Source: Arabidopsis thaliana | Taxonomy: Eukaryota; Streptophyta; Magnoliopsida; Brassicales; Brassicaceae | Assembly: GCF_000001735.4 (NCBI RefSeq) | Contig: NC_003071.7 | Span: 18,947,443 to 19,011,442, forward strand | DNA: 64,000 nucleotides | Reading direction: 5' to 3' | Translations under genes and position numbers: made by a program | Shown here: piece after piece, positions 9,199 through 26,910 of the stretch | Layout of the letters: each line of letters opens with the position of its first letter | How positions within the stretch are numbered: the stretch's first letter is position 1 | Notes under the pieces: model-generated | Seen by the model: the letters and a program-made list of their open reading frames with translations, nothing else | Databases searched by the model: none | Told to the model about the DNA's origin: nothing

Positions 9199-9270
9199 TC
9201 CGTTGTAGTCTAGCTGGTCAGGATACTCGGCTCTCACCCGAGAGACCCGGGTTCGAGTCCCGGCAACGGA
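9199..9270 (+). tRNA. tRNA-Glu (anticodon CTC)
   Basis: This 72-nt cloverleaf has a perfect acceptor stem (TCCGTTG with CAACGGA), the internal promoter A box in TAGTCTAGCTGG and B box in GGGTTCGAGTCCC, and the anticodon stem CTCGG/CCGAG. The seven-base anticodon loop presents CTC at 9233-9235, which reads GAG (Glu). There is no intron, CCA is not encoded as expected for a eukaryotic gene, and an oligo-T terminator follows from 9275. It is intact and probably functional. Confidence 0.97.
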
Positions 9271-9811
9271 GATAGTTTTAAAATATCTTTACTATATTAA
9301 ACCGGATTTTGGTTCAGTCTGGTTATGTTAACCCAGTCTCTGTTTCTCTCTAGGCTCTAGCCTAACCCAGTCTCTGTTTCGATCTTATTGAACTTCTGTT
9401 CCAAAGGCGATTCCTTTTTTATTTTTCCGTTTCTGGGTTTAGATAGAGAAATGTAGAGATTGAGATCGCGGTTACTAGTTGGAACTCTCTTGGAGTTGGA
9501 GAGCATCCGAGGGTTCTGCACGAGCTCCTTTAAGATCGTAGCTTCGGTTCTTTTTTATGAGATTGCGCATTGTGATACCAAAACCGGATTCTACTGTTTA
9601 CAGTTTCCAGGAGTTCAAGTAAAGACCAAACCATGTCTCTGTTTTTTAAGTCACACACGTGTGAGATGACGTGAAGGAATTTTTTGTTGTTGTTGGTCTG
9701 AAGTAGTTGAATGTAGTTGGCTTCTAAACCTTTTTATATATCTCTTCAATATAAATCACACGAAGAATTCTAACACACAATTCGTTGATTCATCATATCT
9801 CCTCTTCATTA
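9271..9811. promoter_or_regulatory. WRKY43 upstream region
   Basis: This is intergenic DNA between the tRNA and WRKY43. It contains an 18-bp direct repeat (TAACCCAGTCTCTGTTTC at 9329-9346 and 9363-9380) and a TATA-like TTTATATAT near 9732-9740, which would place the WRKY43 cap site near 9765. A short open frame around 9460-9669 lacks coding character. Confidence 0.45.
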
Positions 9812-23818: not shown

Positions 23819-24356
23819 AGCTCAACTCGCCCGAAGGAGTCAGAGATTCCTCCTACTCCGAGAATTTATCAAAGAGACAAGAATCTTCCTCTGTAAGATT
23901 ATTATCGTAGATCGGAGTAACAACAACACCAATATGATTTTCATGATTTCAATTGTCGGGTCAACTTATCGGACGGGTCGGGTTACCTGTGGCTCTATTT
24001 TATAACTAAGGCCCAATCTCACTCACTGAGATTCATTGCACAAAGATGGGCCTTTAGTAAACGTCCAGATCAAACATATGGGCCTAGTCCGTATCCGTTG
24101 ATTTAGAATTCTAACGGCTATGATTACGTCTCATTAATGCATGCTCTATCTAAACTTCACGAAATGATACGTTAGCTTGGAGATCAAGTGATTGCAGCCC
24201 TAAAATCTTTTGTTTCCTTATGATAGAAATTCAACTTCAACACTATAAGTGATGACATGTTGGCTTGGAACTAAATAATCATAAGAATATAAATATTTAT
24301 TTGGAACTAAAAAACCTTAAAACTCCATTTTCGTAGAGAGAAATCAATCGCCGACC
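23819..24356. promoter_or_regulatory. GC4 leader and divergent promoter, including duplicated block copy A
   Basis: This is a divergent intergenic region between GC4 (leftward) and the p32-like gene (rightward). Positions 24007-24157 form copy A of a promoter block that recurs at 25670-25842. Shared parts include AGGCCCAAT, GAGATTCATTGCACAAAGAT, AAACGTCCAGATCA, TGGGCCTA and GTTGATTTAGAATTCTAACG. The TATA position reads CTATCTAAAC here but CTATATAAAC in the other copy. Confidence 0.75.
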
Positions 24357-25362
24357 ATGGTTTTCGCTTGGTGCAGGTCAGCATCTAAGCTTGCTTCCGT
24401 TTGTGGTCGATTCCTATCTATCTCCGCCGTTGTGAGTTTGGCTCCGCCGCGTCCCATGGTCTCTCGTGGCTTTCTTTCCTCGACGGCTATTGATGATCGC
24501 CAGAGCTCCAACCAAATGCTTCTCCGATTGATTTGACTCCGAGATCTATTCTGCTTTGCAACTCCATGATCTCGCTTTTGTAAATATTTCTGCATTTTGC
24601 TTTCCTTCCAAAACTAATAGTAATGGTTTAGGTTTCTTTATATGCTCTGCTCTGGCTTTATACCACCTAAAGTTGTTCATTCTATAATCATATATGTTAT
24701 TATTCCCACTAGCGTTGGACTCTGCTCCTTTCTTACATTGCAATAAAAGTATCTAAGTTTACTGATAATTAATATGCTTCCAGGATGATGAGCCGACTCC
24801 AGGAATAAACCCTTACACAATTGAAGATGATGGAGGTAAGACTGTGACATTGACTAGAGACTACCAAGAGGAATATATTGTAGTTGTAGCAGGTATGCCC
24901 TATGAAGAATATGATGGATTATGTTTTCCACTAACTGTGAATTTTACCAAGAAGATCAGTGGCCTCAGCCTCGAGTTTAGGTGCACGGCTTTTCCTCTTA
25001 ATGGTACTTCCATGAATGGTGTATCTGTGATTAGTCGGGGGAATTATTGGGAGGATCAACGGCCGTGTGATTTGTTGTCTAATTCCAAGTAAGCTTTGTG
25101 AATAAGAAAACACCATAATGTTTGTATATATAGTCAGATAGGCATGAGCACAGCAGAAATGTTATAATTAATCTTGTTTTCTTTCTTTCTTTCTTTCTTT
25201 CTTTCTTTCATGGCCTTTTGCAGAAACGTGGATTACAGACACAGTTATTTGCGTATGATATTTGATTATAGCCCAAAATTTGCCTTGTACAAGTACATGA
25301 CGACAGGCACGCGAAAGTACGTGGTATGGTTGAAACATCTTAAGAAGTTTTTGGAGGAATGA
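24357..25362 (+). pseudogene. p32 / mitochondrial glycoprotein (MAM33) family gene with a frame disruption
   Basis: Three exons are readable: 24357-24579, 24784-25088 and 25224-25362. Exon 1 starts [14 protein letters not shown], like a mitochondrial presequence. It runs into TGA at 24534-24536, inside what should read LLRLIDSEIYSALQL in family members. One extra T (ATTTGAC instead of ATTGAC) explains this: exon 1 is 223 nt, while exons 2 and 3 continue in frame only after 222. Exons 2 and 3 encode a good p32-type acidic core (PGINPYTIEDDGG, TLTRDYQEEYIVVV) and the C-terminal helix (YMTTGTRKYVVWLKHLKKFLEE). p32 proteins are doughnut-shaped matrix trimers that help mitochondrial translation. 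Here the gene looks recently inactivated. Start downstream or unusual splicing cannot be excluded. Confidence 0.65.
25172..25209. repeat. (TTTC)n microsatellite in intron 2
   Basis: About nine TTTC units fill the pyrimidine-rich end of the second intron of the p32-like gene, ending 13 bases before its acceptor AG. Confidence 0.9.
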
Positions 25363-25669: not shown

Positions 25670-25884
25670 TTAAGGCCCAATATAGGCCTCACTCACACAA
25701 TGAGATTCATTGCACAAAGATAGGCTTTTTGAATAAACGTCCAGATCACAAAGATGGGCCTAATCCACATCCGTTGATTTAGAATTCTAACGGCTATGAT
25801 ACGTCGCATTAACCCTAAATAATAGATGCTCTATATAAACTTATCTAAATTTTCTATTACTTCCACAGCTCATCTAGGGTTTAT
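25670..25884 (+). promoter_or_regulatory. Duplicated promoter block copy B with TATA, site II and telo-box elements
   Basis: Positions 25670-25842 are a diverged copy of 24007-24157. This copy keeps AGGCCCAA (site II-like), ATGGGCC at 25754-25760 and a strong TATA box TATATAA at 25832-25838. It adds a telo-box AACCCTAAA at 25811-25819, and a reverse telo-box TAGGGTTT follows at 25875-25882. Site II plus telo-box is the known combination in Arabidopsis ribosomal-protein and snoRNA promoters. Transcription is predicted to start near 25865, into a noncoding region. Confidence 0.7.
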
Positions 25885-26469
25885 AGCTCATCTTCTTCCT
25901 CGCCGTTTCGGCAACTTTACTTAGCTTTCAAATACGTTTTTTTTTATAAATATCTTTGATTATCGAGCGATGCGATGAAGAGTTAATATCGGAAATAAAC
26001 AGATCGTGGGACAAATCTCGTCTCGCGAGTTGATGTCCGATAATATTATGGTTCGTATTCGCTGAGCATCGTATTCGTTGTAGCATGTTTAGAAATTAGG
26101 CAACGAAGGACCTATGGGTGAAACGCTTTAATCAATGCGTATTCAAGCCAAGTTTACCTTCGGAAATTCATAATCGGAGATTGGTGGATTTATCCGAGAT
26201 CTGTGTTTTCAATTCCGGATTTCGGTTTTTCATCCCTTATGGATTTGGTTTTCGATTAAATTCTTGTGATATGAGAATGTGATTAGAAGCAAAAGCGAAG
26301 GACCCAGCAGGGAAGCGAGTAAACTCATGAAATGAGGCTTCTCTAACAATTTATTTAACCTTCGTAGATTGAATCTCCAAGAGCTCTTTGATGATCTACG
26401 TTTTCGTGGGTTCTCTTGTGTTTTTTGGTGTATAGCTAGTTTCATATGAAGTTTCAGTGTTGGTTTTGT

Positions 26470-26613
26470 TTAAATGCAGAGATTGTGTGTATCGGCTTAG
26501 TGCGATGTAATGCGCTTTGTACGAAAGATTTCTCTGCGACATTAATTTGGGGCAGATGGGCAGTTGTGATTCAATGTCAATTGAATAGCTCAACAATCAT
26601 CTTCCCCACAATT
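26470..26613 (+). ncRNA. Candidate H/ACA box snoRNA, copy 1
   Basis: There are two hairpins separated by a hinge. The 5' hairpin is closed by GCAGAGA (26476-26482) with TCTCTGC (26531-26537). Its apical stem is AGTGC (26499-26503) with GCGCT (26512-26516). The hinge ACATTA at 26539-26544 fits the H box ANANNA. The 3' hairpin is closed by TGGGG (26548-26552) with CCCCA (26604-26608). ACA follows at 26608-26610, three bases before the inferred end. The upper stem of the 5' hairpin (TCG/CGA) ends exactly 14 nt before the H box, as needed for a pseudouridylation pocket. For the 3' hairpin the spacing is 13 nt. The target is not known. Confidence 0.55.
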
Positions 26614-26763
26614 CGTTTGATTCAACTTTACTCTAATTGTATTAGTTAGATTAGATATACATTTTGACGGGGAAATTTGTGAATTTAGCAATTGTTGCAA
26701 GTTATCTGTGATGTTTTGAACTTATAATGATCTACTTGAACTTCAACACCACTGTTGAAAATT

Positions 26764-26910
26764 CCAAAAGCAGAGATATGTGTGTATCGGCTTAGTGCGT
26801 TCAAATGCACTTTTCACGAAAGATTTCTTTGCAATATCCAATTTGGGGCAGATGGGCAGTTGTGATTCATCGTTCTATTGAATAGCTCAACAATCATCTT
26901 CCCCACAGCT
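26764..26910 (+). ncRNA. Candidate H/ACA box snoRNA, copy 2
   Basis: This is a diverged tandem copy, 294 bp downstream of copy 1, with the same two-hairpin plan. The basal stem GCAGAGA (26770-26776) pairs with TCTTTGC (26826-26832) through one G-U pair. The apical stem AGTGC (26794-26798) pairs with GCACT (26807-26811). The 3' hairpin TGGGG (26844-26848)/CCCCA (26901-26905) is followed by ACA at 26905-26907 plus three bases. Pocket sequences (GTGTGTA and AAGATTT) match copy 1, so both would guide the same site. The hinge (AATATCC) is a weaker H box than in copy 1. Confidence 0.5.

Follow-up and report, generated by a model that had tools for sequence, protein, structure and literature searches.

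The two tandem copies of the H/ACA snoRNA gene snoR135 in the Arabidopsis thaliana DNA analysed here (the window, a single stretch of 64,000 nucleotides) are predicted to encode the missing guide of the plant 18S rRNA pseudouridine Psi1630, and also the guide of the 25S rRNA site which corresponds to Psi2191 in yeast and Psi3674 in humans. On this reading, to which we assign a probability of roughly 0.65, the duplication preserves both guides, and the remainder of the RNA drifts. The family itself is known, and what is new is one predicted rRNA target per hairpin. In the literature passages searched, neither site was found assigned to snoR135, and an earlier assignment may exist.

The two genes are as follows.

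26473..26613, + strand: snoR135 copy 1, H/ACA snoRNA gene (RF01431, 150.3 bits, E 8.9e-31; fold z -3.54, with 0 of 200 dinucleotide-preserving shuffles as stable)
26767..26910, + strand: snoR135 copy 2, H/ACA snoRNA gene (RF01431, 125.0 bits, E 9.9e-25; fold z -2.44, with 3 of 200 such shuffles as stable)

Both copies match the Rfam family snoR135 (RF01431) at gathering thresholds, each exceeding the gathering score of 45 bits and covering model positions 1-143 of 143. They are 141 nt (copy 1) and 144 nt (copy 2) in length, start 294 bp apart, and are identical in 125 of 144 aligned columns. A BLAST search of the window with copy 1 returned the two copies and five short matches of 11-20 bases, and nothing else. 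Across the window there were four Rfam matches at gathering thresholds: the two snoR135 copies, one snoR145, and one tRNA.

9199-9271: tRNA-Glu gene, anticodon CTC (Rfam tRNA match)

Membership of both copies in the snoR135 family is near certain. The first-pass annotation had correctly given the tandem arrangement, its place and the 294 bp spacing, as well as the H/ACA class, the strand and the approximate ends; it erred in calling the RNAs undescribed-looking and in recognizing no named snoRNA, since Rfam names both copies snoR135 over their full length. A new H/ACA snoRNA family, in favour of which there is nothing except the architecture, is ruled out by these full-length matches and receives practically no weight. 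The pair shares with snoR135 the whole-model match, the boxes, the fold, the length and the pocket sequences, which are common to both copies; no difference places it outside the family, its peculiarities being the tandem arrangement and the imperfect H box of copy 2. Both are ordinary members of a catalogued family, and the array is of a kind typical of plant snoRNAs. In upland cotton, too, snoR135 and snoR145 have been listed (PMC11222342, available text).

As folded by RNAfold each copy consists of two hairpins, a hinge and a 3' tail, which bears out the hairpin-hinge-hairpin-ACA architecture described earlier, and the fold gives the same pockets, GTGTGTA and AAGATTT, as had been read from the letters. 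The boxes are located at:

26539..26544, + strand: copy 1 H box ACATTA, which fits ANANNA
26834..26839, + strand: copy 2 hinge box ATATCC, an imperfect H box in which the final A of ANANNA is missing
26608..26610, + strand: copy 1 ACA box
26905..26907, + strand: copy 2 ACA box

With the Rfam end taken as the 3' end, three bases follow the ACA box in both copies, and the first pocket lies 14 nt from the hinge box by hand count; both distances had been anticipated. In H/ACA RNAs a spacing of 14-16 nt separates the pocket from its H or ACA box. For hairpin 2 of either copy the distance to the ACA box is 13 nt by hand count, which we have counted against the two-target reading.

The pair had also been said to show covariation. 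The quoted changes, U-G to U-A and G-C to G-U, are real. Of the 42 base pairs formed in copy 1, copy 2 leaves 36 unchanged, keeps three through a one-sided change and breaks three; "covariation" is too strong a term because no two-sided compensatory change was found (0 of 42). Strong covariation between the copies is thereby ruled out, and two sequences are insufficient to carry such an argument. Of the two, copy 1 is the better; the guides of copy 2 are the same, but its H box is imperfect.

The latter features raise the question of whether either copy, or both, is a duplicate in decay that yields hardly any stable RNA or none. In copy 2 the H box is replaced by ATATCC and three positions are unpaired relative to copy 1, and an A. 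thaliana RNA named snoR135 was of low abundance and went undetected on a northern blot (PMC7464842, available text). The same source places that RNA in the cytoplasm and nucleoplasm by FISH, assigned it by short similarities of low significance, and discusses it among the C/D snoRNAs; if it is the same RNA as the snoR135 described here, it speaks against strong expression. Against decay, copy 2 scores 125 bits versus a gathering score of 45 and keeps every guide position, and copy 1 has a complete box set. We consider decay improbable.

An H/ACA snoRNA is a stable RNA bound by CBF5, NOP10, GAR1 and NHP2, in which CBF5 isomerises the unpaired uridine at the top of each pocket. The guide sequences of the two copies, taken from the fold and target scan except where the alignment is named, are:

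26485..26491, + strand: copy 1 hairpin 1, 5' guide GUGUGUA, complementary to 18S UACACAC
26525..26527, + strand: copy 1 hairpin 1, 3' guide AAG, complementary to 18S CUU
26557..26562, + strand: copy 1 hairpin 2, 5' guide UGGGCA, complementary to 25S UGCCCA
26595..26600, + strand: copy 1 hairpin 2, 3' guide AAUCAU, complementary to 25S GUGAUU
26780..26786, + strand: copy 2 hairpin 1, 5' guide GUGUGUA
26820..26822, + strand: copy 2 hairpin 1, 3' guide AAG
26853..26858, + strand: copy 2 hairpin 2, 5' guide UGGGCA (alignment with copy 1)
26892..26897, + strand: copy 2 hairpin 2, 3' guide AAUCAU (alignment with copy 1)

Each pocket was compared with every uridine of an rRNA set, unbroken helices of at least 3 bp being required on both sides of the U-N gap. 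The set was drawn from public contigs and comprised three 18S, three large-subunit, two 5.8S and one partial 5S sequence, all eukaryotic, to which was added an A. thaliana 18S sequence entered by hand; it consisted of rRNA throughout, its large-subunit members being from eukaryotes other than plants. The shuffled-pocket control covered 1523 uridines and 1000 shuffles, and a second control used 600 shuffles with three geometries allowed. The scan, which the first-pass annotation had proposed, yielded one predicted site per hairpin (18S for hairpin 1, 25S for hairpin 2), and alternative pocket geometries, two for each hairpin, gave weaker sites only. Bipartite complementarity around an unpaired uridine in rRNA is strong for hairpin 2 and weak for hairpin 1. 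Viral contigs were searched for 25S and yielded none. As a side observation, eukaryotic rDNA is present in ten contigs (L002-L011) that are assigned to bacterial species genomes, and represents contamination of those assemblies.

Hairpin 2 pairs through UGGGCA and AAUCAU with the large-subunit rRNA sequence GUGAUU-U-CUGCCCAG, forming 6+6 bp. Of 1000 shuffled pockets, 2 reached as good a match; with three geometries permitted, the figure was 1 of 600. The scan located the site in two of the three large-subunit sequences (L004 and L006); it was absent from L007 both by scan and by a pattern search for its context, which was present in L004, L006 and L010. The target stretch also occurs in the Rfam eukaryotic large-subunit consensus. 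Human 28S rRNA carries Psi3674, Cm3680, Psi3694, Am3697, Am3703 and Psi3709 (PMC6182160, available text). When the third U of GAUUU in the consensus is set to 3674, the offsets +6, +20, +23, +29 and +35 fall by hand count on C, U, A, A and U; when the second U is chosen, offset +20 mismatches. The yeast modifications Psi2191 (guided by snR32), Cm2197 and Am2220 repeat the offsets +6 and +29 (PMC8307265, available text). Since A. thaliana Am2210 is equated with yeast Am2220 and human Am3703 (PMC8351944, available text), the plant position would be approximately U2181. The main text of the last source does not contain U2181, its single "2181" being part of a reference identifier. The hairpin 2 target would therefore be the uridine equivalent to yeast Psi2191 and human Psi3674, at about U2181 in A. 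thaliana numbering, and snoR135 hairpin 2 would resemble yeast snR32 in being directed at this nucleotide.

Hairpin 1 pairs through GUGUGUA and AAG with 18S CUU-U-GUACACAC, forming 7+3 bp, and this was the top match of the scan. The site is found in all four 18S sequences scanned, one of them the A. thaliana sequence entered by hand; the contigs had been fetched with a pattern containing the 18S target stretch, and finding it there is not an independent confirmation. The stretch is general in eukaryotes, since the Rfam eukaryotic small-subunit consensus carries it. The 3' guide forms only 3 bp, and the complementarity is by itself not significant: it was equalled by 108 of 1000 shuffles, and by 175 of 600 once three geometries were permitted. 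A count back from the assumed 3' ends places the target U at 1692 in human and at 1630 in an 1804-nt A. thaliana 18S. The human guide of 18S Psi1692, presumably SNORA70, would share this nucleotide with the prediction for snoR135 hairpin 1.

In human 18S rRNA Psi1692 is accompanied by Cm1703 at +11 and Am1678 at -14 (PMC6182160, available text), and by hand count on the consensus these two offsets jointly fit only the third U of CCCUUUG. Streit and Schleiff (2021; PMC8351944, available text) report the A. thaliana nucleotide U1630, in helix 28, as a pseudouridine site "targeted from an unknown snoRNA"; the same source gives the yeast site as unmodified, a point against the 18S target, and counts 28 confirmed pseudouridines in A. 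thaliana 18S. With 510 uridines in one fetched 18S sequence, a random U would be a confirmed pseudouridine about 1 time in 18. The case for hairpin 1 as a guide is built on its coincidence with a reported pseudouridine that has no guide, and not on complementarity.

It is possible, if unlikely, that snoR135 guides the 25S site only, through hairpin 2, and that the 18S match of hairpin 1 is due to chance, its true target lying elsewhere (for example in an snRNA) or not existing. The frequency with which shuffled hairpin 1 pockets reach the observed score favours this explanation, as does a scan set made up of rRNA. We also note that the U5 snRNA loop seemingly fits one side of the hairpin 1 pocket. 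Chance would, on the other hand, have had to select the exact U which is pseudouridine in human and a reported guide-less pseudouridine in A. thaliana, and the hairpin 1 guide is kept in both copies. Guide positions are identical between the copies in 22 of 22 cases, whereas the remaining columns agree in 103 of 122 (p 0.034 by a one-sided Fisher test). The positions were supplied by the target scan, but the copies had already been viewed side by side, and the comparison was therefore not blind. We retain the reading with one target on each subunit as the preferred one.

The snoR135 copies belong to an array with a third snoRNA gene and a promoter-like region upstream:

25674..25882, + strand: probable common promoter (pattern scan)
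25674-25679, - strand: site II element (pattern scan)
25755-25760, + strand: site II element (pattern scan)
25811-25817, + strand: telo box (pattern scan)
25832-25838: TATA box (pattern scan)
25875-25882, - strand: telo box (pattern scan)
26293..26437, + strand: snoR145, H/ACA snoRNA gene of the same array (RF02413, 132.2 bits)

The three Rfam-named snoRNA genes lie on the same strand within 620 bp. snoR145 does not fold better than its shuffles, of which 64 in 200 are as stable (z -0.46), and the call therefore stands on the Rfam score. Two trial pockets of snoR145 gave scattered matches in the target scan, the best (-19.3) in one 18S sequence only.

The combination of telo box, site II element and TATA box has been described for plant snoRNA gene clusters (PMC4660826, available text). 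Single elements are common: over both strands of the whole window there are 48 occurrences of the site II pattern and 15 of the 7-base telo pattern, and it is therefore the grouping that counts. Here a telo box and site II elements occur within 1 kb upstream, together with a TATA box, and at least two snoRNAs follow downstream on one strand. snoR145 and the two snoR135 copies probably share this one telo box/site II promoter and would form a common transcript. In this they are like the polycistronic snoRNA genes of PMC4660826, where the same elements stand upstream of clustered same-strand snoRNAs; the main text of that paper is without the terms snoR135, RF01431, U1630 and U2181, and the array is not named there in those terms.

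Several other features surround the array. The promoter stretch 25692-25850 is duplicated approximately 1.68 kb upstream, at 24018-24165, the two aligning in three ungapped pieces of 89%, 89% and 74% identity; site II elements are present in the upstream copy, a telo box is not. Between the two promoter copies, at 24359-25362, are ORF pieces which we take to resemble a p32/MAM33-type mitochondrial protein; Pfam, run on two flanking ORFs, gave no family, and there was no match for 24844-25092, the sole p32/MAM33-like piece examined. A C/D-box-like candidate lies between the promoter and snoR145 at 25972-26065 (+), with the C box GCGATGA, the D box CTGA, a 5-pair terminal stem and a fold z of -2.68; chance would be expected to produce about 0.07 such patterns in a stretch this long, and no Rfam match was found up to E 1. 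Its D-box guide seemed complementary to a putative plant 25S stretch; a pattern search did not find this stretch in the fetched rDNA, and the one fetched sequence and the Rfam consensus covering that region differ from it. The region 26101-26224 may contain an extra H/ACA-like hairpin and starts CGAAGGACC, like snoR145. Its match to snoR135 (20.8 bits), and that of 26703-26783 to SNORD35 (20.2 bits), are below gathering and were taken as chance.

The mechanism that we propose from these sequence comparisons begins with RNA polymerase II, which would transcribe snoR145 and both snoR135 copies from the one telo box/site II promoter. Each snoR135 copy would be processed from the array transcript and bind the CBF5 (dyskerin) complex, whereupon hairpin 1 would guide pseudouridylation of the 18S uridine equivalent to A. 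thaliana U1630 (helix 28, human Psi1692), and hairpin 2 that of the 25S uridine equivalent to yeast Psi2191 and human Psi3674. Taken as a whole, from array promoter through CBF5 binding to the two rRNA pseudouridylations, we judge this scheme to be probable. If the target reading is true, a single deletion would test the 18S and 25S sites together. The helix 28 pseudouridine of plants, listed without a guide in the 2021 review, would gain one, and one RNA would place a conserved pseudouridine on each ribosomal subunit.
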